A model generated the notes under the pieces. The model had not been told where the DNA came from, ran no database searches, and saw only the letters and a program-made list of their open reading frames with translations. Below, in pieces: positions 42,967 to 60,187 of a DNA stretch of 64,000 nt. Source of the stretch: Candidatus Acutalibacter stercorigallinarum (GTDB taxonomy: Bacteria; Bacillota; Clostridia; Oscillospirales; Acutalibacteraceae); NCBI GenBank assembly GCA_019112625.1, contig DXIW01000028.1:1-64000 (forward strand), read 5' to 3'. The translations under genes were made by a program, and so were the position numbers. The number at the start of each line of letters is the position of its first letter. Positions within the stretch are counted from its first letter, which is position 1.

Positions 42967-43197
42967 TCACCCCTCCACACCCCGTGTAGAGGTCAAAAGC
43001 GTCAGCTCCCCGTTTTCCTCTTTGCGGAAGGTGTTTTCCTCGTAGAAAAAGGCGCAGTGAAATTTCCCGCCTTCAAAGCTGGGCACCGCGTAGTACAGGC
43101 GGTTGACCAGGGTGGTCTCGTCCTCGTAAACGTCATGGTCCCCCAGGGGCACGGGCGCGGCGGGATTCTTCGGGGAGTTGGGTGACTTCATGTGCAT
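42967..43197 (-). CDS. Small acidic protein downstream of XRE copy 1
   Basis: MHMKSPNSPKNPAAPVPLGDHDVYEDETTLVNRLYYAVPSFEGGKFHC..; paralogue at 47451-47690. Confidence 0.7.
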   Translation of the reverse strand: MHMKSPNSPKNPAAPVPLGDHDVYEDETTLVNRLYYAVPSFEGGKFHCAFFYEENTFRKEENGELTLLTSTRGVEG

Positions 43198-43477
43198 CGG
43201 GCGCCTCCTGAAAACGGGCGGTCTCTACCAGTTGGGCGAAGGTCCGGACGAAGGCCAGGACCTCCTCGGAGAGCTGGCCGAGAAACAGCGCCAGCGTGGT
43301 GGCGCACGGCAGATGGACGCCCTGCTCCAGCTTTTGGTAGCTGCGGGCCGTCAGGTACAGCGCCTCCGCCAGCTTTTCCTGGGTGAGGTGCTTCTCCAGC
43401 CGGAATCCCCGCACCTGGCCGACCCAAAAAACAAGGAACTGCCTCTCGTACCTTCGCAACGGCAAGACCTCCCACAA
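43133..43477 (-). CDS. XRE-family regulator, copy 1
   Basis: VRGFRLEKHLTQEKLAEALYLTARSYQKLEQGVHLPCATTLALFLGQL; conserved start probably TTG (LRRYERQF). Confidence 0.85.
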   Translation of the reverse strand: MWEVLPLRRYERQFLVFWVGQVRGFRLEKHLTQEKLAEALYLTARSYQKLEQGVHLPCATTLALFLGQLSEEVLAFVRTFAQLVETARFQEAPDAHEVTQLPEESRRARAPGGP

Positions 43478-43537
43478 AACTACACGAACCTTTTTGCTTG
43501 CAGGAAAATCTTACCAGTTGCAACGCTATTCTACCAC

Positions 43538-43556
43538 GTCCTATAGGACGTGTTTT
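43538..43556. promoter_or_regulatory. Palindromic operator upstream of XRE copy 1
   Basis: CACGTCCTATAGGACGTG, perfect 18-bp palindrome. Confidence 0.6.
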
Positions 43557-43642
43557 GTCGATTTTTGTAGAGACTTTTCGCTTTTTATACCGCCGCACCA
43601 CAGAAAAAGGGGGGAAGACAGGTTTTTAGCCGGTTCAAACAA

Positions 43643-47007: not shown

Positions 47008-47092
47008 CAACCGGCGAAAAACCTGTCTTCCCCCCTTTTTTCTGTGGTGCGGCGGTATAAAAAGCGAAAAGTCTCTACAAAAATCGACAAAA

Positions 47093-47111
47093 CACGTCCC
47101 ATAGGACGTGG
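47093..47111. promoter_or_regulatory. Palindromic operator upstream of XRE copy 2
   Basis: CACGTCCCATAGGACGTG. Confidence 0.6.
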
Positions 47112-47161
47112 TAGAATGGCGTTGTAACTGGTAAGATTTTCCTGCAAGCAAAAAGGTTCGT

Positions 47162-47515
47162 GTGGTTTTGTGGGAGGTCTTGCCGTTGCGAAGGTACGAG
47201 AGGCAGTTCCTTGTTTTTTGGGTCGGTCAGGTGCGGGGGTTCCGGCTGGAGAAGCACCTCACCCAGGAAAAGCTGGCGGAGGCGCTGTACCTGTCGGCCC
47301 GCAGCTACCAAAAGCTGGAGCAGGGCGTCCACCAGCCATGCGCCACCACGCTGGCCCTGTTCCTCGGCCAGCTTACCGACCAGGAGGTCCTGGCCTTCGT
47401 CCGGACCTTCGCCCAGCTGGTGGAGACCGCCCGTTTTCAGGAGGCGCCCGATGCACATGAAATCACCCAACTCCCCGGAGAATCCCACCGCGCCCGTGCC
47501 CCTGGGGGACCATGA
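47162..47515 (+). CDS. XRE-family regulator, copy 2
   Basis: Near-identical to copy 1 (VRGFRLEKHLTQEKLAEALYLSARSYQKLEQGVHQPCATTLALFLGQLTDQEVLAFVRTFAQLVETARFQEAPDAHEITQLP). Confidence 0.86.
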   Translation: MVLWEVLPLRRYERQFLVFWVGQVRGFRLEKHLTQEKLAEALYLSARSYQKLEQGVHQPCATTLALFLGQLTDQEVLAFVRTFAQLVETARFQEAPDAHEITQLPGESHRARAPGGP

Positions 47516-47690
47516 CGTTTACGAGGACGAGAACACCCTGGTCAACCGCCTGTACTACGCGGTGCCCAGCTTTGAAGAGGGAAAATTTCACTGCTCTTTC
47601 TTCTTTGAGGAAAACACCTTCCGCAAAGAGGAAAACGGGGAGTTGACGTTGGTCCACTCGGAATATGGGATAGACGCCGCTAAAATCTGA
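47451..47690 (+). CDS. Small acidic protein downstream of XRE copy 2
   Basis: MHMKSPNSPENPTAPVPLGDHDVYEDENTLVNRLYYAVPSFEEGKFHCSFFFEENTFRKEENGELTL; C-terminus diverges from copy 1. Confidence 0.7.
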   Translation: MHMKSPNSPENPTAPVPLGDHDVYEDENTLVNRLYYAVPSFEEGKFHCSFFFEENTFRKEENGELTLVHSEYGIDAAKI

Positions 47691-48469: not shown

Positions 48470-49315
48470 ATGGATGACCGGCGTATCAGCCGAGACCAGA
48501 TCGAGGGCTTTGCCCGAATGCTGCGAAGGGAGGAGCTCCGCGAGAGCACCATCGAAAACTATCTCCGGCACGTGGCGGCGCTGGGGGCGTGGATGGGGGA
48601 CGCGCCTGTGACCAAGGAGCGGGTGGCGGCGTGGAAGGAGTCGCTGCTGGAGGGCGGGCGCTGCCCCGGGACCGTGAACAGCATGCTGGTGTCCGCCAAC
48701 CGGTTTCTGGCCTTTCTGGGGTGGGGCGACTGCCAGGTAAAGGCGCTGCGCGTCCAGCGCCAGCTCTTCCGGGAGAACCAGCGGGAGCTGACCCGGGGGG
48801 AGTTCGACCGGCTTATCGCCGCGGCCAGGGCGGCGGGGCGGGAACGGCTGCTCTTGCTGATGGAGACTATCTGCTCCACGGGCATCCGGGTAAGCGAGGT
48901 GAAGTATATCACCGTGGAGGCCCTGCGGTGCGGCAAGGCGGAGATCGCCCTGAAGGGCAAGATCCGCACCATCCTGCTCCCCGCCAGGCTGTGCCGGAAG
49001 CTGCTGAAGTACTGCAAAAAAAGAAACACCGTCTCCGGCGAGGTGTTCCTCACCAAAAACGGTTCCAGCCTGTCCCGCAAGCAGATCTGGGCGGAGATGA
49101 AGTCCCTGTGCGGGCTGGCGGGGGTGGCGCCCTCCAAGGTGTTCCCCCACAACCTGCGGCACCTGTTCGCCCGGGCCTTTTTCAAGGCCTGCCGGGACGT
49201 GGCCCAGCTGGCGGACGTGCTGGGCCACAGCTCTATGGAGACCACCCGCATCTACCTGATCTCCACCGGGGCGGAACACGCCCGCACCCTGGAGCAGCTG
49301 CGGCTGGTATCGTAG
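48470..49315 (+). CDS. Tyrosine recombinase (Xer-like, candidate DNA invertase)
   Basis: TGIRVSEVKYITVE, HNLRHLFARAFFKACRDVAQLADVLGHSSMETTRIYL. Confidence 0.93.
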   Translation: MDDRRISRDQIEGFARMLRREELRESTIENYLRHVAALGAWMGDAPVTKERVAAWKESLLEGGRCPGTVNSMLVSANRFLAFLGWGDCQVKALRVQRQLFRENQRELTRGEFDRLIAAARAAGRERLLLLMETICSTGIRVSEVKYITVEALRCGKAEIALKGKIRTILLPARLCRKLLKYCKKRNTVSGEVFLTKNGSSLSRKQIWAEMKSLCGLAGVAPSKVFPHNLRHLFARAFFKACRDVAQLADVLGHSSMETTRIYLISTGAEHARTLEQLRLVS

Positions 49316-49318
49316 AGG

Positions 49319-49337
49319 ACAAAATAACGATATTGTC
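49319..49337 (+). repeat. Inverted repeat left (IR-L) of candidate invertible segment
   Basis: ACAAAATAACGATATTGTC. Confidence 0.85.
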
Positions 49338-49403
49338 TCAACATAAGCCCATAACTTACCCTACATTTTACCACAGGGCCTGGGAAAGAACAAGGTAAAA
49401 TTA

Positions 49404-49480
49404 AAGAAAAGCGCAAGGAAATAGCCGAGGAACATGAATATGTGTTCTATCGGCTGGATTCGTGCGCTTTTCTTGTTTTT
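49404..49480 (+). terminator. Long hairpin with T-tract inside the candidate invertible segment
   Basis: AAGAAAAGCGCA...AGCCGA..GAACAT / ATGTGTTC..TCGGCT...TGCGCTTTTCTT then GTTTTT. Confidence 0.65.
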
Positions 49481-49549
49481 ACCGGGAAATGGCCGGGCCA
49501 AAACCGGGGTTTTTGGTATCGATTTTTTGCAAACCGCCCGGGCGGACAG

Positions 49550-49568
49550 GACAATATCGTTAAATTGT
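49550..49568 (-). repeat. Inverted repeat right (IR-R)
   Basis: GACAATATCGTTAAATTGT; reverse complement ACAATTTAACGATATTGTC matches IR-L at 17/19. Confidence 0.85.
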
Positions 49569-49611
49569 AGAGCCCAGAGGACAGCCCAGGGCGCGGGAAA
49601 TACCGGAAAGG

Positions 49612-49881
49612 ATGTGCTGGAGCGTGTACGAGCGAATGGGTTTGTTGGAACGCTGCACAGAGGAGGTGGGGTGCGCCTACCTTTCGGATTTGCGGTATTT
49701 GGACACCGAGGAGAGGTTCCGCCTGGCGGGGGCCGTGGAGCAGATCCCCCCGGGGGACTACAGCCTGGCCGAGTGGAACGACGCCCTGGACTACCTGGCA
49801 GGCGGGGCCCCCGCCCCTTCCACCGGGGAGGCAAAGCAGCGGCTTTTGCTGGGGCTTACCCGCCTGCGGTTTCAGAAATGA
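49612..49881 (+). CDS. 89-aa hypothetical protein between the switch and the adhesin gene
   Basis: MCWSVYERMGLLERCTEEVGCAYLSDLRYLDTEERFRLAGAVEQIPPGDYSLAEWNDALDYL. Confidence 0.6.
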   Translation: MCWSVYERMGLLERCTEEVGCAYLSDLRYLDTEERFRLAGAVEQIPPGDYSLAEWNDALDYLAGGAPAPSTGEAKQRLLLGLTRLRFQK

Positions 49882-49978: not shown

Positions 49979-52900
49979 ATGGCAAACTACACAAATCGCG
50001 GCAGCCACTACAAGGCCGCCTCTCGGGAAGAAAAGCGCCGGCCCTGGCGGAAAAAGGGCCTGGCGGTTCTGGCCTGCCTGCTGGCAGTGGCCTTTGCCGC
50101 CGGCGTGGCGGCCCTGGCGGTGCCCGGGCTGTTCCGCAGCGGGGATGAGGCCACCCTGACAAAGACCATCTACTGGTGGGACAACGACAACGAGGACGGC
50201 AAGCGCCCCGGTGTGGACAAGTATGAGAAGCCGGTGCTGGTCCTCGGGGATGAAGCGAACGATGTCCAATACAAGAGCGATGATCCAGACGCCCTGGCGC
50301 TCTTGAAGTCCCTGAACTACCCGGACGGCTGGCCCGATGTGGTGGTCGCGCCGGACCAGGGGAATACCTGGAAGGTTACCACCAATCCGAAATCGCTCAA
50401 CAAGATTGTGTATGAGGTGGACGAGGACGGCAATCTGGTGGCTACCGACAAAAAAGTCACCTGGAGCTTGAGTCAGGGATTCCCGCCGGAGGTAGAGGGC
50501 TATACCGCCATTTACGCCGAGCTGGCGGGAGAGCTGGGGGACTTGTTCGGCAGCTTCTCCACAGTGGGGGAGGACGACTGGCACTACGTAAAGAGCACGG
50601 ACTACACCTTTACCATCGACCTGCGCAGCGGCAGCCTGGAGAACCTTTCCGGCATTACCGACGCCATTTTGCAGCAGTTTGAGCTGGAGGCCTCCTTTAC
50701 CGCAGGCGGCGAGCAAAAAACACCACATGTCTCCCTGGCTGAGCTCGAAGGCGAGCCCGGCTATGCCACAGTGCAGTTCCAGGTGAAGGACGACGGGGAT
50801 GAAGAGTGGGAAAACATCGACCTGGACAACCCGGACGCTATGAAGGCAGTCCACGATGAGTTGCGGCTGTCCTTGACCATGCCCAAATATACCATCGAGG
50901 GGCAGCCCATCACCTATAAGGTGGCGGAGGCCAACACGGAAGAGAAACCAGCCGACGGCAAGCTGGACTACCAAATCCCCGGTTTTGAGGGTACGGACGA
51001 CGCGGAGGACTACTTCGCCATTAAGTACGACAACACCAACGCCACCAACCACGGCAGCGCCACCGACGGCGCCTACAGCGGCGGGTCGGTGATTCTGACC
51101 CTGACCGGCACCACGGATTATAAGGCCACCAAGGTGTGGCAGGACAAAGACGGAAAGAAAGAGGATCGCCCCGCCGACGTGACCCTGGAGCTGTGGCGCT
51201 ATGTGGCCGGGCAGCCGCTGGAATCTGCCGCCGCCGTGCGGGACAGCGCGGGGAATATCTACACTTGTCCGATCTCTGCGCAATCGGATTCCGGCGTGGG
51301 TGTGCCTGTGATGTTCTATGATGCGGATGCGGAAACGGACGCGGAGGGAAATAAAATTCCCGCCGCCTTCCCCAAATACGACCCCGAGGGGAACCGGTAT
51401 ATCTATGTGGTGAAGGAGTACGGCCTGGACGGGAATTACACCCAGGTGTTCGGTGAGGTCGACCCCAGCACAGGCGATGTGAGCGGCGACTTCATCAAAG
51501 ACCTGGACGGGGACGGCGTTGTGTATGATAACGTAGGCGGCCGGCAGTCCGGCAACACCTACCTGTACAACGGCGGCACCCTGAACAACGTGCTCAACGG
51601 CACCACCACGGCCACCGCCACCAAGGTGTGGAACGCCTCTGCCTTCCAGGCGGAGTTTGGCGGCGTGACGGTGGAGCTGACCCTGCAGAGCCGCCCCTCC
51701 AAAGAAGGGCAGGGTGCAGAGGAAGGATGGACCAACACAAACGAAACCTACTCGCTCACCGGCTTCCAGGCGGAGAACCTGGCGGGGCTGTCCTACTCCG
51801 GGGCCTTCCCCCAGTACGACAACCTGGGCCGCAAGCTGGAGTACCGCTGGGTGGAGACCAATGTGACCCAGGTACTTACGGATGAGAATGGGGCTGAGAC
51901 AGAATTTACAACAGGATTTACGCGAGACGAAACCACCGGCACCGCCACCTTTACCCTAAAGCAGAAGGACTTTTCGGGCAATACGCGCGAGGTGAAGTAC
52001 ACCTCTGAGACCGAAGTGGGCGAGGATGGCAACCCCAAGATTACCAACTCCGTGGCCAACCAGGTGCACTACGAGGTGGACAAGTGGTGGGCGCTGAAAG
52101 AGGATGAGGAGGTTCCTGAGGACGCGGAATCCAACCCTAATTACTGGCAGGATGAAAGCGGCCAGTGGTACACCAAGGACATCAGTGCGGATGGTAATTC
52201 GACCATTCAAGATAGCAACGCCGAGAAAGCCACCTTCTACCTGTACCGGGTGGAGAGCGGCCAGCAGGTGCCCATGGATGAGCCGGGAGGGTATTACCTG
52301 GCCTTCACCATGACAAAGGATGAAGTAACATTTTTTGACGACCCCGGTTCCGTTACGGACGAGGAATTTGCGAATATAAAAATTACCGAAACGGGTGAAG
52401 GTAACCCCTGGCACGTGAACATCACCGGGCTGCCGGAGTTTGACGAGGGCGGCCGCCAGTACGACTATGTGCTGGTGGAGGCGGACGCCTCCCCCCGGTA
52501 CGAGACAGAGCGCGAGTCGGACGGGTACTACACCGAAGTGTACAACCCCCGGGGGCCGGGGGAGGTCCTGCAGATTCTGGTGCAGAAAAACTGGATTGAC
52601 GACAGCGACACCGTCCACCGGGAGCCGGTGGTCATCCAGGCCTACAAAAAGTCGACGGGCGAGAAAATTGAGGACGCTTCTGTAACGCTGGAGAACGGCC
52701 TGTGGTACGACTGGATCACCATTCAGTTGGGCAGCAGCGGCCAGGGGGAAGGTAACAACCCCAACGAGCCCGAGACCAATCCCGACACCAATGGGAACGG
52801 CGGTGAGGAGAACATCCAGCCCGGCGGCGAGCCCACCCAGCCCGACGATAGCACCATCGTGACCGGCGGCGAGACCGAGGGCGGCGAGACCGAGACCGAC

Positions 52901-55900
52901 GGCAATACCGATGTGACCACCCAGCCCGGCGAGGAGAACGACGAGACTGAGGAAATTACCAATACCGACAGCGACAACACCCCGGAGGAATCCGAGGTGA
53001 GCGAAAGCCTGCTCGCCAACGAGGGGAAGGCGCTGGCGGCGCCCAAGACTGGCGACGGTGAAGGCGAAATTCAAGACCCCCTCAATGAAAACGAAGGCTC
53101 CACCGGTAATGGCGGCACTCCCAGCGGCGGCACCGAAGATGCCAAGCCCGACGGTGTGCAGAGCATTAAGGATATTTACCTGCTGGAGGTCTCGATTGGG
53201 GAGGTTTCTGTCAAAAACACCCTGAAGGACGGCGACCTCAGTGACGGCATTGGTGAGGATGAAGAACCGTGGTACGACCAGGTCACCGGCGACGTGACCA
53301 GCCAGTACCACCGGTACCAGGTGACTTACTCGGACTTTACCCCCATCGATGGCACCAAACCGGATTTGGAACCGGGCAAGAGCGGCAAGTACAGCGCGAC
53401 GGTCACCAACCGGCGGCTGGGCAATATCGACATCACCGTCCATAAGGTGTGGAATTCCGGCGAAATCGGCAGCAAAGAAGAACAGGCCCTGCAGCTTGCG
53501 TTGCATCAAGCCAAAATGCCCGGCTCCGACCCCGAAGAGCCCGGCGGCCTGAGCCTGGCCCTGAAGCTGACTTTCCACGAGAGCATGGGCACGGAGCATG
53601 GATATACCATTGGGGACGATTACGTCATGCTGGGGAAAGGCGCGGAGGAAACGCCCATCTACAATGTGGAGCGGAAAGTGAAAGACGAGACCGGGGAGGC
53701 TGTTCCTTCCGACGAAGGCTTCACGGGTGAGGAGCCGGGCAGCTCTGTCATAAAAATCTACCTGCCGGACGAAGCCATCGGAGATGATGGCGAAAAAGCC
53801 GGGAAAGAGCAGACGTACTATTTCAACAACCTGCCCAAGTTTGACACCACGGGCACCATTGTGCGCTACACCGTGGAAGAAGGGTTGGTGAGCGAAGATG
53901 GCACGTTTATCTCCTTCGATGAGTATATCGCCAAGGCGGAACCTGGCGATGCGTTGGCGAAGGAGCTGAAGAAGTGGGTCCACACCATGAAGGAGGTCTA
54001 CTATGTGGCCGCTTCCGACCCCGGCGCGGCCATTCCCACCACGTCTACCAAGGACGTGGACTTCCAGACGTTCGAGGCCACCAACAGCCTCACCGGCACG
54101 AAAGATGTGCAGTGGTACAAGGAGTGGAACGACGCCTACCGCAACGAGGCGGGCGAGCGGCCCGACATCTTCCTGGATGTTTTCCGGTTAGTCCACACGG
54201 ATGACGATAACACCCGGCTGGAGCTGGTGGTGAAGGACTACCAGTGGACGCCCACCGAAGACAAAGACCCCGTGAACTACTGGACGGCCACCATGGAGGG
54301 CGTGCCCCTGTATGACAGCCTGGGGTACGAAATCACCTACTTCGCCGTGGAGCGGGCTGTGAATGATACAGAGCGGTTCGACTATGGCCCGGTGCGCTAC
54401 TACAACACGAAAGGTGACTTGATGGGCGACCGGCTGGAGGTGGACAGCGAGTATTTGGAGGAGACCGCGGAGGGCGTACTGTATGCGTGTTCCCTCAAAG
54501 ATGGCGATGACTATGTGGAAGTCGTGGGCCTGGACGAGCCCCTGGGGGAGCGCTACGCTGCCCGGAAGGTGAACTATGCCCTGGGGGAGGGCGGCACCTT
54601 CGAGAACTACCTGCGGGCCAACCCCAACCTGGCGGGCAGCAAGCTGTGGCAGGGGGTGGAATCCGGCTACCCCACCGACCAGCTGCCCCAGGTGACCTTC
54701 GCCCTGTACCAGACCACCCTGGGGAAGGAGACCGAGCCCGAGAACCCGGACGCGGAGACCGACCCCGAGAACCCGGGCGAGGAGGTAGCCACCCTGCAAG
54801 TCAACTGGGGCGGTGATTTTGGCATGCTGAATGGCAGCCTGACCACCGATTTCTGGTTCTTTATGAAGGGCGACTGGCAGGTAGATTGGAAGGACGACCG
54901 CTACGTCTACACCTCTGATGAGAGTAGTGGCACATACTATGTAAACAGCGACTGGGAAGTGGTTAACGAGAACGGCGATGACATCGAATTGCCCGACGAC
55001 GTGCGCCTGCCCCAGTACGACGAGGAGGGCAACCGCTACGCCTACACCATGGTGGAGCGGAGCGTCACCATGATGGGCCCGAATGGGAAGGACAAGATCA
55101 CGATCAAGCTCGACCCAACGACCGGAGAGCCCAGTGAGGACAACGAGGAGGAAGCTGTAGCCTTCTATAAGTCCATCTTCAAAAACGCCAAGATGACCGA
55201 CGGGGCGACCTTCCAGGCCACCAACGTGTACAACGACGAGCAAGAGGGCCAGCTGGCGGTGGAGAAGTGGCTCAACGTGGGCGAGACAACGCCGGTGAGC
55301 TACCCCGCCATCCAGGTGGAGCTGTACCGGGCTGTTACCAGCCAGAAGGACAATGAGGACGCTTGGAGATTGGTGGACTCCCACATCTGGAAGTCCAACG
55401 AGGTGCAAGAAAAGTTTACGGGTGATACCCCTGATGCGTGGGGCTACCTGGAATATACCTTTGAAAACCTGCCCATCTACGCCCCCAACGGGGAGAAGTA
55501 TGTCTACAAGGTGGTGGAGGTCAAGGAGGATTTCCTCGACGGGTACGACACCTGGGCGGTGGAAGGGCCGGTTGCAGAGGGTGACCTCGACGGAAAAATG
55601 GAGGATGACAATCGAAAAGAAGTAGTATCCGATTTGGAAGCCACAGAAGTCCTGGAGGGCAGTGAGACTACCCCAGACCTGGACACCGCCACATTTATCA
55701 ACAAGCGGGATGCCGACAGCGTTAAGCTGCAGGGCACCAAAGTGTGGGAGGACTGGGGCGACGAAATGGAGCTGCGGCCTAGTGATGCGGAAAATGTCAT
55801 TACGCTGACGGTTTCCCGCCGTGCGGACGCCCAGCCCGGGGAGAACAATGCCATTGAATCCCAGCCTTTGACTGCGGGCACGGATTACACTGTCTCTTGG

Positions 55901-58900
55901 AATATACCAGAAGATAATAATGGAGAACCCTGGACCTACACCATCACTGGCGCGAACGGCGAAGAGCTGGAGCAGTACGCCCCCAACGGCATGCCGTGGA
56001 TCTACCAGGTGACGGAGACGATCAGCGACCCGTATGATTATTACAATGCCAGCACCAACACGGTCACGTTTGGCACGGAGCCGGTGAACGGCTTCTTGAC
56101 CATCAGTGGGACAACTCCCATCACCAACAGCCTGAAAACCAGCGCCGCGTTCCAGAAGAAGTGGGTGGACGAGGACAACAAGGAAATCTCCACGGACTAC
56201 TTCGGCGATGTGACGGTGGAGTTTAAGCTGCAGGTGGCTTTTGCACCCGATACCGGTGCAGAAGCCGACTGGCAGGACGCCGAGACCTTCTTTACAAACG
56301 ATACTGCTCGGGACGGCCAGGTTTCCGTGCCGAGTAGTGTGCTCAACATGGGGACATACCAGTTTGAGGGCAGCACAAACGAGGCCAACGGCTGGCAGCA
56401 TACTTTCTCGAACCTGCCCCGGGCGGTGAAGGTTGGAGGTGAGACCACCAAACTCACCTACCGCGTGGTGGAGACCAAAGTGACCTACACGCTGCCGGGT
56501 GAGGAGAATGCTACGGAAGTTGAGGTGGAGATTAACGGCGATAAATATACCGTTACGGACAGTAAAGGCATTTTCACGGAAGCTACCTTAACTGAGCCGA
56601 CTGCTGGCGGCGCCACCTGGACTACCACCAACACCATGAGAACCGTGGACCTGACGATCACCAAGAAGTGGGTCGACCAGAACAATAAATACCACACCCG
56701 GCCCGAGGGCGAGAACGGTGAGTGGGTGGTGGACTTCCTTATCCAGTACCAAGACGCGGAAGATGTGGAGACGGGTACATATCATAACGTCACCACCAAG
56801 GACGACGAGCCCCTAATTGTGTCCATCAGCGGCACGGCCGAGAACGAGGGCACCACCACCGTGAAGGACCTGCCGTATGTAGAAGGCCGCCAGTACTACG
56901 CTTTCGAGCTGGAGCCTGGATATACAACTGATAATGTAGACGAATACATCTGTGATGAGAACGGGGGAACTTTCCACATCGGTTATACGGTGGACTACGG
57001 GGACGAGAACCCGGTACAGGTTGAGGAGCCCACAGACGGCCAGACCGACTTCATCACTACCGCTACCAACACACTGGACACCACCTCGGTGAGCGTAAAG
57101 AAAAACTGGGAACCCGAGAAACTGCCCGGTGGCGACCAGTACCCCTCTGTGACCATGAAGGTGCAGTATAAGTCTGGGCCCAACGAGGACGATTGGGAAG
57201 ATTTGGAGGGCTGTACTGTTACCCTAAATGGGAGTGAAACCCTTGCTTGGGAGCACACCTTTGAGGATTTGCCCAAATACTACCCCGAGGCTGCCGGATA
57301 TGCCGAGAAAAGGGAGACCCAGTACCGTGTGGTAGAGTTGGATGGCGACGGCTATGTGCAGGTAGAAGAGAAGTATGACGGAGAAAACAAAACCTTTACC
57401 TTCACCAACAAGCCGGTGGTGGACTTTACGGTTACCAAGCAGTGGAACAGCGTGCCGGAGGCGGCCTATAATTGGCAAGTGACCGTGGGCCTTTACCGCA
57501 CGACAGAGGAGGTAACCGACTACACAAGCCTCGCTTACGATGTGGAACACATGGTCACGAACGAAAACGGCCAGCTGTTGACCGTGGAGCTTTACGGACC
57601 CGACAACCTGACCGCCACCTTTGAGGACCTGGACAAGTACTACATGGATGAGACCACGGGCGACTGCCTCGAGTACACCTACTACGTGAAAGAGCTGACG
57701 GTTGGCGGTGATAAAATCGAAGGCGCCAGCTTTACCAAAGAGGTGGACGGCAAGGACGTTGCCTTCACCGTGGACTACACCTACGCCGAAAACGCCGCCA
57801 CCGTGGTGAACCGGGTGGAAGGCTCCCTCCAGGTGAAGAAGGTTTGGCATGACAAGGGCGGGGAAAGTGCCCGCCCGGAGACAATCACCGTGGGGCTGTA
57901 CCGCTTTGATAAAGCGTCTCAGGACTATGAGGCGGTGAAAGACCCGAGCAATCTCGAGAAAAACTACACCCTTACCCTGGATGAAGAAAACGACTGGCAA
58001 GGCACCTTTGAAAACCTGCCGGAGTACTACAGCGACGGGAACGGCAACCGAGGCGAGAAAATCCAGTATGCGGTTTACGAGCTGGAGAATGGCACGCGAA
58101 TCGAGCAGGGAGGTACCCTAACTGCAACGGACGATGGAAGCTACACCGTCTACTACGATGGGTTCACGATCCACAACGTGCGCGAGGTGGATTTGACCAT
58201 TGAGAAAACGGTCACCGGCGACGCGGCGGACCCCGAGAGGAAGTTTGCCTTTGAGGTCGGCTTTACCTACGATGAGACTATGCCGGAAGCGATCCACACC
58301 GGGCCCTACACCTACACGGTGTACCAGAAGGGTGACGGGGACGAGGCAACTCAGGTGAAACAAGATACCATTCCCAGCAGGGAGGGCACCATTACCCTCA
58401 CCGGCGGCCAGTACGCGGTCATCGAGGGCCTGCCCGCCGGGACGGCGTACACCGTGACCGAGCAGGAGGCCAACCAGGACGGCTATGTCACCACGGCCAC
58501 TAACGCAAGCGGCACCGTCACCGTTGACGGGGAAAACAAGGTTTCCTTTACCAACTGCCGCGCCCCCGGGGATCTGATTATCCGCAAGGAGGTCACCGGC
58601 AGCGGCGGCGACCGGAGCAAGGAGTGGACGTTCCACCTGAAAGCGGATCTGCCCGATGGCAGGACGCTTTGCGGCGAAGTAGCTTGTGAGCGCAACGGGA
58701 AGTCGGAGACCTTGTTCTTTGATGAAATCGACGGTTACGCCACCTTTATCCTGAAATCCGGCGAGAGCCTGACAATCAAAGACCTTCCCAACGGCACGGT
58801 CTTTACCGTGACGGAAGCGGGAGCCAACCAGGGCGGCTACACGACCACGGTGGACGGCACCGGTGCTTTACTGCCAGATAAAGATGGCAGGACAGGCACG

Positions 58901-59344
58901 ATCGACGCCGAGGATAACAACTTGGTGACCTTTACCAACCACAAGCCCGGCGGCGGAGGCCCCGGGCCTGGGCCCACCCCCACCCCCACACCGGAGCCGG
59001 AGGAGACGCCTACGCCTGAACCGGGCGAGACGCCTACCCCCGCCCCGGAGGGGTCGCCCAGCCCCGAGCCCAGCGGCACACCGGGACCGGATGGGACGCC
59101 TACCCCGGCGCCCAGCGGCTCCCCCAGCCCCAGCGGGTCGCCGACCCCGGGGCCGGGCGGGTCGCCTACACCGGCCCCCACCCCGACGCCCCCTGGGGGC
59201 GACACGCCAGACGACACCCCCCAAACCGGGGACCCCACCCACACCTTGTGGTGGGCCCTGGCAGGGGCGGGCGCGCTGGCCGGACTGGGCGCCCTGTGGG
59301 CCACCCGGCCCAAGGGCCATAAGGCCCGCCATCGGAAGAAGTAA
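49979..59344 (+). CDS. Giant Cna-B-repeat cell-wall-anchored adhesin/pilin-like protein (~3121 aa)
   Basis: N-terminal signal/TM; many repeats of the type KVW.D...RP..V.L.LYR......Y.V.E; Pro/Thr/Ser-rich stalk; DTPQTGD + hydrophobic helix + RPKGHKARHRKK tail; AAAAGGAG RBS. Confidence 0.93.
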   Translation: MANYTNRGSHYKAASREEKRRPWRKKGLAVLACLLAVAFAAGVAALAVPGLFRSGDEATLTKTIYWWDNDNEDGKRPGVDKYEKPVLVLGDEANDVQYKSDDPDALALLKSLNYPDGWPDVVVAPDQGNTWKVTTNPKSLNKIVYEVDEDGNLVATDKKVTWSLSQGFPPEVEGYTAIYAELAGELGDLFGSFSTVGEDDWHYVKSTDYTFTIDLRSGSLENLSGITDAILQQFELEASFTAGGEQKTPHVSLAELEGEPGYATVQFQVKDDGDEEWENIDLDNPDAMKAVHDELRLSLTMPKYTIEGQPITYKVAEANTEEKPADGKLDYQIPGFEGTDDAEDYFAIKYDNTNATNHGSATDGAYSGGSVILTLTGTTDYKATKVWQDKDGKKEDRPADVTLELWRYVAGQPLESAAAVRDSAGNIYTCPISAQSDSGVGVPVMFYDADAETDAEGNKIPAAFPKYDPEGNRYIYVVKEYGLDGNYTQVFGEVDPSTGDVSGDFIKDLDGDGVVYDNVGGRQSGNTYLYNGGTLNNVLNGTTTATATKVWNASAFQAEFGGVTVELTLQSRPSKEGQGAEEGWTNTNETYSLTGFQAENLAGLSYSGAFPQYDNLGRKLEYRWVETNVTQVLTDENGAETEFTTGFTRDETTGTATFTLKQKDFSGNTREVKYTSETEVGEDGNPKITNSVANQVHYEVDKWWALKEDEEVPEDAESNPNYWQDESGQWYTKDISADGNSTIQDSNAEKATFYLYRVESGQQVPMDEPGGYYLAFTMTKDEVTFFDDPGSVTDEEFANIKITETGEGNPWHVNITGLPEFDEGGRQYDYVLVEADASPRYETERESDGYYTEVYNPRGPGEVLQILVQKNWIDDSDTVHREPVVIQAYKKSTGEKIEDASVTLENGLWYDWITIQLGSSGQGEGNNPNEPETNPDTNGNGGEENIQPGGEPTQPDDSTIVTGGETEGGETETDGNTDVTTQPGEENDETEEITNTDSDNTPEESEVSESLLANEGKALAAPKTGDGEGEIQDPLNENEGSTGNGGTPSGGTEDAKPDGVQSIKDIYLLEVSIGEVSVKNTLKDGDLSDGIGEDEEPWYDQVTGDVTSQYHRYQVTYSDFTPIDGTKPDLEPGKSGKYSATVTNRRLGNIDITVHKVWNSGEIGSKEEQALQLALHQAKMPGSDPEEPGGLSLALKLTFHESMGTEHGYTIGDDYVMLGKGAEETPIYNVERKVKDETGEAVPSDEGFTGEEPGSSVIKIYLPDEAIGDDGEKAGKEQTYYFNNLPKFDTTGTIVRYTVEEGLVSEDGTFISFDEYIAKAEPGDALAKELKKWVHTMKEVYYVAASDPGAAIPTTSTKDVDFQTFEATNSLTGTKDVQWYKEWNDAYRNEAGERPDIFLDVFRLVHTDDDNTRLELVVKDYQWTPTEDKDPVNYWTATMEGVPLYDSLGYEITYFAVERAVNDTERFDYGPVRYYNTKGDLMGDRLEVDSEYLEETAEGVLYACSLKDGDDYVEVVGLDEPLGERYAARKVNYALGEGGTFENYLRANPNLAGSKLWQGVESGYPTDQLPQVTFALYQTTLGKETEPENPDAETDPENPGEEVATLQVNWGGDFGMLNGSLTTDFWFFMKGDWQVDWKDDRYVYTSDESSGTYYVNSDWEVVNENGDDIELPDDVRLPQYDEEGNRYAYTMVERSVTMMGPNGKDKITIKLDPTTGEPSEDNEEEAVAFYKSIFKNAKMTDGATFQATNVYNDEQEGQLAVEKWLNVGETTPVSYPAIQVELYRAVTSQKDNEDAWRLVDSHIWKSNEVQEKFTGDTPDAWGYLEYTFENLPIYAPNGEKYVYKVVEVKEDFLDGYDTWAVEGPVAEGDLDGKMEDDNRKEVVSDLEATEVLEGSETTPDLDTATFINKRDADSVKLQGTKVWEDWGDEMELRPSDAENVITLTVSRRADAQPGENNAIESQPLTAGTDYTVSWNIPEDNNGEPWTYTITGANGEELEQYAPNGMPWIYQVTETISDPYDYYNASTNTVTFGTEPVNGFLTISGTTPITNSLKTSAAFQKKWVDEDNKEISTDYFGDVTVEFKLQVAFAPDTGAEADWQDAETFFTNDTARDGQVSVPSSVLNMGTYQFEGSTNEANGWQHTFSNLPRAVKVGGETTKLTYRVVETKVTYTLPGEENATEVEVEINGDKYTVTDSKGIFTEATLTEPTAGGATWTTTNTMRTVDLTITKKWVDQNNKYHTRPEGENGEWVVDFLIQYQDAEDVETGTYHNVTTKDDEPLIVSISGTAENEGTTTVKDLPYVEGRQYYAFELEPGYTTDNVDEYICDENGGTFHIGYTVDYGDENPVQVEEPTDGQTDFITTATNTLDTTSVSVKKNWEPEKLPGGDQYPSVTMKVQYKSGPNEDDWEDLEGCTVTLNGSETLAWEHTFEDLPKYYPEAAGYAEKRETQYRVVELDGDGYVQVEEKYDGENKTFTFTNKPVVDFTVTKQWNSVPEAAYNWQVTVGLYRTTEEVTDYTSLAYDVEHMVTNENGQLLTVELYGPDNLTATFEDLDKYYMDETTGDCLEYTYYVKELTVGGDKIEGASFTKEVDGKDVAFTVDYTYAENAATVVNRVEGSLQVKKVWHDKGGESARPETITVGLYRFDKASQDYEAVKDPSNLEKNYTLTLDEENDWQGTFENLPEYYSDGNGNRGEKIQYAVYELENGTRIEQGGTLTATDDGSYTVYYDGFTIHNVREVDLTIEKTVTGDAADPERKFAFEVGFTYDETMPEAIHTGPYTYTVYQKGDGDEATQVKQDTIPSREGTITLTGGQYAVIEGLPAGTAYTVTEQEANQDGYVTTATNASGTVTVDGENKVSFTNCRAPGDLIIRKEVTGSGGDRSKEWTFHLKADLPDGRTLCGEVACERNGKSETLFFDEIDGYATFILKSGESLTIKDLPNGTVFTVTEAGANQGGYTTTVDGTGALLPDKDGRTGTIDAEDNNLVTFTNHKPGGGGPGPGPTPTPTPEPEETPTPEPGETPTPAPEGSPSPEPSGTPGPDGTPTPAPSGSPSPSGSPTPGPGGSPTPAPTPTPPGGDTPDDTPQTGDPTHTLWWALAGAGALAGLGALWATRPKGHKARHRKK

Positions 59345-59380: not shown

Positions 59381-59404
59381 ATGCAGGGAAGAGAGGAGGA
59401 CCGT

Positions 59405-60187
59405 ATGAAAAGGAACGTCCTGCGGCGGATTTTGGGCGCGGCGCTGGCCCTGGTGGTCCTGGTTTCGGGGGCCGTGGTGGCCAGGGATTTGCTCCGCGCC
59501 CGCCGGGAGCGGGCAGCCTACGCTTCCTTGGCCAGCCAGGTGCGGCAGCTGGCGGAGCAGGAGTCGCCTGCTTCCTCTGACGGGCCCTCTTCCCAGCGGG
59601 AAGAGGCCCCCAGCCGGTTGGGGGCCTACCAGGCCCTGGCGGAGGAAAACCCCGACCTGATCGGGTGGGTGTCCATCCCGGGCACTGGGGTGGACTACCC
59701 CGTCTTGTACACCCCCCAGGACCCGGAGTACTACCTGCGCCGGGACTTTTACGGGGAGTACGCGGTCAGCGGCAGCATCTTCGCCGGGGAAGGCTGGACC
59801 CCCGGCGGGGCCCACACCATCCTGTACGGCCACAACATGGACGACGGGTCCATGTTCGCCGCCCTGCTGGACTACCAGGAGGAGGACTTCGCCCGGGAGC
59901 ACGGCACGGTGCGGTTCGACACCTTGGAGGAGGAGGGGGAGTACCAGGTGGTGGCCGCCTTTTACAGCCAGGCCTATGGTTCCCAGGAGGAGGGGGCCTT
60001 CCGCTATTACCAGTACACGGACCTCTCCGACCCCCAGGTCTTTTCGGAGTACGTCCGGCAGGCGAAGGCTGCTTCCCTGTACGACACGGGCGTCACCCCC
60101 CAGCCCGGCGACCAGCTGCTGACCCTCTCCACCTGCAGCTACCACACCGGCGACGGGCGGTTCGTGGTGGTGTGCTGCCGGACGTAG
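59405..60187 (+). CDS. Class B-like sortase
   Basis: HTILYGHNMDDGSMF, LTLSTCSYHTGDGRFVVVCCR (catalytic His, Cys, Arg). Confidence 0.93.
   Translation: MKRNVLRRILGAALALVVLVSGAVVARDLLRARRERAAYASLASQVRQLAEQESPASSDGPSSQREEAPSRLGAYQALAEENPDLIGWVSIPGTGVDYPVLYTPQDPEYYLRRDFYGEYAVSGSIFAGEGWTPGGAHTILYGHNMDDGSMFAALLDYQEEDFAREHGTVRFDTLEEEGEYQVVAAFYSQAYGSQEEGAFRYYQYTDLSDPQVFSEYVRQAKAASLYDTGVTPQPGDQLLTLSTCSYHTGDGRFVVVCCRT

Follow-up and report, generated by a model that had tools for sequence, protein, structure and literature searches.

In E. coli fim, a promoter segment enclosed by inverted repeats is inverted by the tyrosine recombinases FimB and FimE, whose genes lie next to it, and controls a surface adhesin (PMC2784873). 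A second well-described switch comes from the Clostridia. In C. difficile, the cell-wall protein CwpV is phase-varied by inversion of a segment of about 200 bp through the Xer-family recombinase RecV, with 21-bp repeats 195 bp apart (PMC2784873). More recently, the main text of a survey of gut Clostridia has tied inverton group 139 to tyrosine invertase group 35, with Clostridia invertons nearly always neighbouring a tyrosine recombinase (Jin et al. 2025, PMC11892184). According to that text, read mapping has shown that Clostridia invertons associated with a group of tyrosine recombinases do flip. One example given there, an inverton of Intestinimonas butyriciproducens, has arm starts separated by 241 bp and shifts its orientation between surface-attached and free cultures (PMC11892184).

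The locus considered here lies in a stretch of 64,000 nucleotides (the window) from Candidatus Acutalibacter stercorigallinarum. Its parts are the following.

48470-49315, plus strand: Xer-like tyrosine recombinase of 281 aa, likely an invertase (PF00589, E=1.5e-22).
49318-49337: left recombination site, GACAAAA-TAACGA-TATTGTC, core at 49325-49330; it fits the 7-6-7 site of the family.
49340-49345, minus strand: TATGTT, one mismatch from the family leader motif TATGTA, recognized from the placement of that motif in the family.
49365-49370, minus strand: predicted -10 of the switch promoter, TAAAAT with an extended TGG (family profile, 24.6 bits).
49388-49393, minus strand: predicted -35, TTGTTC, separated by a 17-nt spacer from the -10 (part of the same 24.6-bit match).
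49404-49475, both strands: almost symmetric hairpin whose two strands both carry T tracts, a bidirectional terminator as predicted from folding energies.
49550-49569: right recombination site, GACAATA-TCGTTA-AATTGTA, core at 49557-49562.
49612-49881, plus strand: small all-helical protein of 89 aa, the first gene after the switch, with homologues at five other switches.
49979-59344, plus strand: giant Cna-B/DUF7601 adhesin of 3121 aa with a C-terminal PQTGD-type anchor (PF05738, E=4e-37; PF24547, E=1.2e-46).
59381-60187, plus strand: class B-like sortase (PF04203, E=6.6e-11; TIGR03064, E=1.4e-40, slightly under its cut-off).

This locus probably follows the known fim-type invertible promoter principle. 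It shares with fim a short intergenic promoter segment, inverted repeats, a neighbouring tyrosine recombinase and a surface adhesin, but it has a single recombinase, upstream, and its segment also holds a two-way terminator. Two further features set beside fim, a core private to each locus and a 10.5-bp phasing of the sites, come from the present comparison. With cwpV the locus has in common a surface protein of the Clostridia, a short segment and a tyrosine recombinase of the Xer family. The cwpV promoter, however, lies outside its segment, regulation works through a terminator and recV is located elsewhere in the genome, whereas here the predicted promoter and terminator are both inside and the recombinase is adjacent. 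The interval 49318-49569 is best read as a site-specific invertible promoter cassette that would be worked by the adjacent recombinase, with the assembly holding the OFF state and inversion giving ON (probability roughly 0.9). An invertible promoter switch worked by the recombinase had been proposed in the initial annotation. The relatives strongly support that proposal; the promoter it chose and the ON state it favoured did not hold up. Domain matches bear out the neighbours it named, a tyrosine recombinase on one side and a Cna-B adhesin followed by a sortase on the other.

The arms at 49319-49337 and 49550-49568 are complementary at 17 of 19 positions with 212 bp between them, exactly as first described. 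The perfect 13-bp core also reported there, TAACGATATTGTC, is indeed present, and in the 2.19-Mb genome it has exactly two copies, which are the two arms. By chance a perfect 13-bp inverted match would be expected about 0.001 times (roughly 105 x 840 comparisons, uniform bases), and the inverted match score is 13 at the window against a maximum of 11 in shuffles. The functional sites reach one base past the reported arms (49318-49337 and 49550-49569), and the left one starts three bases past the recombinase stop codon. When the right site is reverse complemented, it shows the same core TAACGA and inner arm TATTGTC as the left site. Its outer arm is imperfect (tacaatt), so recombination may be weak. 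The diverged arms (17/19) and the unpartnered sites of some relatives would also suit a locked relic, in which the sites are remnants, no inversion takes place in the species and the adhesin is permanently off from this promoter. This is unlikely, since core and inner arms match perfectly between the two sites, the recombinase is complete and retains its catalytic motifs, and the adhesin is an intact frame of 3121 codons.

The recombinase has the XerC-like/XerA protein 4a8e as its best PDB relative (E=1.2e-18), and the catalytic motifs R, K, HxxR, H and Y are visible in the alignment to it. It falls under the NCBIfam equivalog cut-offs for XerD (100 vs 330 bits) and XerC (88 vs 335 bits), and the NCBIfam invertase models match it weakly (E 3e-7, under cut-off). 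Relatives occur in 12 of the 29 genomes of the genus; across the order, 88 of 297 genomes have one, spread over 63 of 145 genera; 80 loci with flanks around such relatives formed the comparison set. Two loci of the same genus share their sites with loci from Candidatus Acutalibacter pullistercoris. No relative was found in viral contigs, and a mobile or phage origin was dropped on that ground. Contig ends were considered as a sign of mixed orientations and set aside, as several contigs end just past the recombinase and a similar number just before it. At L031 (4261-5094) and the same-genus loci L023-L025, L028 and L029, a second tyrosine recombinase, about 31% identical, comes immediately after the switch and may, at those loci, be what the promoter drives.

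In most relatives two inverted sites follow the recombinase stop codon. Each site of the family is a 20-bp palindrome of 7-6-7 form, GACAAAA-N6-TTTTGTC. With the first choice of sites, the two 6-bp cores were identical within the locus at 66 of 73 loci, among which there are 51 distinct left cores. Because that choice favoured matching cores, the choosing was repeated by arm sequence alone. Cores were then identical at 6/6 positions within the locus in 59 of 65 loci, compared with 1.7% between loci, counts that are not fully independent since the relatives share descent. In 13 independent loci, mostly from contiguous assemblies and none of them used to define the site, cores were identical in 12; one complete genome among these has five different cores. 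Strand exchange depends on a homologous core and so demands cores that agree within a locus, even though they vary between loci.

Seven loci showed an apparent core mismatch. In two of them (L054 and L100) a matched partner lies at a distance of 1.3-1.8 kb. The other five (L042, L052, L064, L077 and L078) have a left site after the recombinase and no core-matched partner in the flanks examined; these are possibly locked or remodelled switches. A third site sharing the core, or even a fourth, is present at L019, L026, L043, L045, L054, L086, L088 and L094. Many of these extra sites run in direct orientation at some 50-100 bp from a main site, and they could permit deletion or an alternative flip.

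The distance between the two sites is also constrained. Centre-to-centre distances group near 221, 231, 241, 251 and 281 bp. When all periods from 7 to 15 bp were tried, the best was 10.5 bp, the helical repeat of DNA, and none of 2000 jittered controls scored as high; with one locus per core kept, 1 of 2000 did. Spacings in the independent loci are mostly 240-241, 250-253 and 272-283 bp, and that of the window is 232 bp. Group 139 of the gut Clostridia survey agrees with the present family in its Clostridia host, recombinase adjacency and the 241-bp spacing, the main class here, and the two are probably the same, on a comparison by class, adjacency and spacing rather than by repeat motif. No mention of a 7-6-7 site, of matching cores, of helical phasing or of a leader motif was found in the main text of that survey (PMC11892184). 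Likewise, no description of private cores, helical phasing or a strand-specific TATGTA leader was found in the open-licence literature.

Inversion itself is seen between relatives. The L074 segment must be reversed before it aligns to five close relatives; against L071, for example, identity is 46.8% forward and 83.8% reversed, compared with 86.7% over the 3' end of the recombinase gene. In L074 the outer half-sites remain attached to the flanks whereas the inner ones travel with the segment, and this locates the crossover within the core. The L074 and L071 loci belong to separate genomes, and their downstream DNA differs (45% over the first 100 bp). Both orientations are observed between related loci rather than within the species of the window. 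The Xer-like recombinase and the dif-like sites, two half-sites around a 6-bp centre, might instead suggest integration or Xer-like resolution, or the repeats might be due to chance, in either case with no role in switching. Such readings are scarcely credible beside dozens of loci with inverted, helically phased sites and a promoter between them, the lack of relatives in viral contigs, and an L074 segment that shows inversion and not deletion or insertion.

A generic sigma-70 scan gave nothing, owing to its threshold, and a family profile was built instead from 51 promoters with the window left out. The family promoter, TTG-17-TGnTAAAAT, is usually near one end of the segment, and a strict pattern (TTG-N3-N14-TGN-TANNNT) is found in 54 of 76 segments versus about 1.4% of control stretches. 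In the window the profile gives 24.6 bits, compared with a best score of 17.2 among 253 stretches, each 252 bp long, taken across the 64 kb. The predicted promoter is at the left end on the minus strand (49393-49365) and is aimed at the recombinase, so the assembled orientation is read as OFF; the best right-pointing score in the segment is -5.6 bits. On these scores OFF is the more probable state of the assembly. Distances from promoter to site also step by about one turn (26-27, 34-36, 45-48 and 57-58 bp). The 27 bp of the window compares with a usual 45-48 or 34-36, and one other locus has 26.

The initial annotation had instead placed a right-pointing promoter at the other end, TTGCAA (49527) and GACAAT (49550) with a 17-nt spacer and CCGCCCGGGCGG, had seen no comparable -35 at the opposite end, and had suggested that the assembly might be ON. 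All of these letters are present, the hexamers are correctly spaced and they aim at the adhesin, so the same switch could be imagined with this pair as its working promoter. That is very improbable: each hexamer matches the consensus at 4/6 positions, the pair scores -5.8 bits on the family profile against 24.6 for the left-pointing promoter, and relatives show no enrichment of -35-like hexamers at the TTGCAA position. Moreover, the GACAAT -10 sits in a recombination site and would exist in both orientations. The strong promoter-like pair, TTGTTC-17-TAAAAT, is at the very end said to lack one, and it points left. In the family, leave-one-out profile calls have the promoter facing the recombinase in 51 segments and the cargo in 15. 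On the recombinase tree, ON and OFF are scattered as much as shuffled labels, and the sister genes L031 and L032 differ.

Between promoter and right site, the hairpin at 49404-49475 has a folding energy of -39.6 kcal/mol (z -7.3) for the plus strand and of -31.0 kcal/mol (z -7.8) for the minus strand. Hairpins in two directions occur in 59 of 74 family segments and in 6 of 74 shuffles. As predicted, a two-way terminator would shield the cargo from recombinase read-through in either orientation, which argues against an attenuator of the cwpV type. In such an arrangement the promoter would be outside, upstream, and inversion would make or remove a terminator that governs read-through coming from the recombinase side and entering the adhesin. 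Its precedent in C. difficile cwpV (PMC2784873) and the very strong hairpin speak for it. It is nevertheless quite unlikely, because inversion of a near-symmetric hairpin with T tracts on both strands would not abolish termination, and because a strong conserved promoter is inside the segment while the cwpV segment has none.

A short motif accompanies the invertible promoter. In 41 of 69 segments, where about 0.9 would be expected, TATGTA stands on the promoter strand in the interval from the -10 to the site; on the opposite strand it is present only once. Its flanking bases are unconserved. After similar promoters elsewhere it occurs in only 2 of 63 cases. This preference for one strand suggests that the motif acts in the ON transcript or through directional binding to DNA. 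An upstream start-stop codon was considered and rejected, since the next base varies and ATG-TAG/TAA is not consistent.

The first cargo gene encodes the 89-aa protein, which has homologues after five other switches (L038, L043, L055, L069 and L088; E 2e-15 to 2e-9). Its AlphaFold model has a pLDDT of 82; it has no Pfam or NCBIfam match, and a PDB fold search gave no meaningful match. Cargo in the relatives includes S-layer homology, Listeria-Bacteroides repeat, leucine-rich, VWA and Cna-B/DUF7601 proteins. Further cargo includes Wzz, LytR-CpsA-Psr and DUF4379 zinc-finger proteins and second recombinases.

The proposed cassette would operate as follows. The Xer-like recombinase would bind the two palindromic 20-bp sites and exchange strands within the shared core TAACGA, so that the segment of about 250 bp flips. 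The segment is taken to carry one sigma-A-type promoter near one end and the two-way terminator in the middle. In the assembled state the promoter would run antisense to the recombinase gene and the terminator would block read-through to the adhesin (OFF). After inversion the promoter would be at about 49494-49522 on the plus strand, from where it would transcribe the gene of the 89-aa protein, that of the giant Cna-B adhesin and, probably, the sortase gene as well (ON). From sequence comparison we infer that this recombinase acts here and that the segment flips in this strain. We likewise infer that the transcript would reach adhesin and sortase and that adhesion would vary among cells. The prediction is a giant adhesin of a gut Acutalibacter-like bacterium toggled by DNA inversion, and assemblies of this clade that usually display the OFF state.

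On a broader scale, the loci may form a modular, plug-in switch family across the Oscillospirales, with shared recombinase, promoter and two-way terminator, private cores, helical phase and TATGTA in the ON leader, attached to many surface-protein or polysaccharide operons. The odds for this reading seem evenly balanced. If it is true, several switches without crosstalk could run in one genome, and the leader motif would mark an additional layer of control. The family also offers naturally distinct recombinase/core pairs for tests of orthogonality. Its members can be searched for without reads by a simple signature: a recombinase stop codon, a palindromic site, a second site with the same core phased at 10.5 bp, and a TTG-17-TGnTAAAAT promoter.

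Another pair of inverted repeats is found elsewhere in the window, at 43000-43614 and 47031-47648. The copies are 94-95% identical, contain XRE-like HTH frames and lie around a MATE transporter gene. Inside them are CRISPR-like repeats of about 34 nt (GGCGTGGATAGAAAT) in opposite orientations. The pair could be either a substrate for homologous inversion or an assembly effect.
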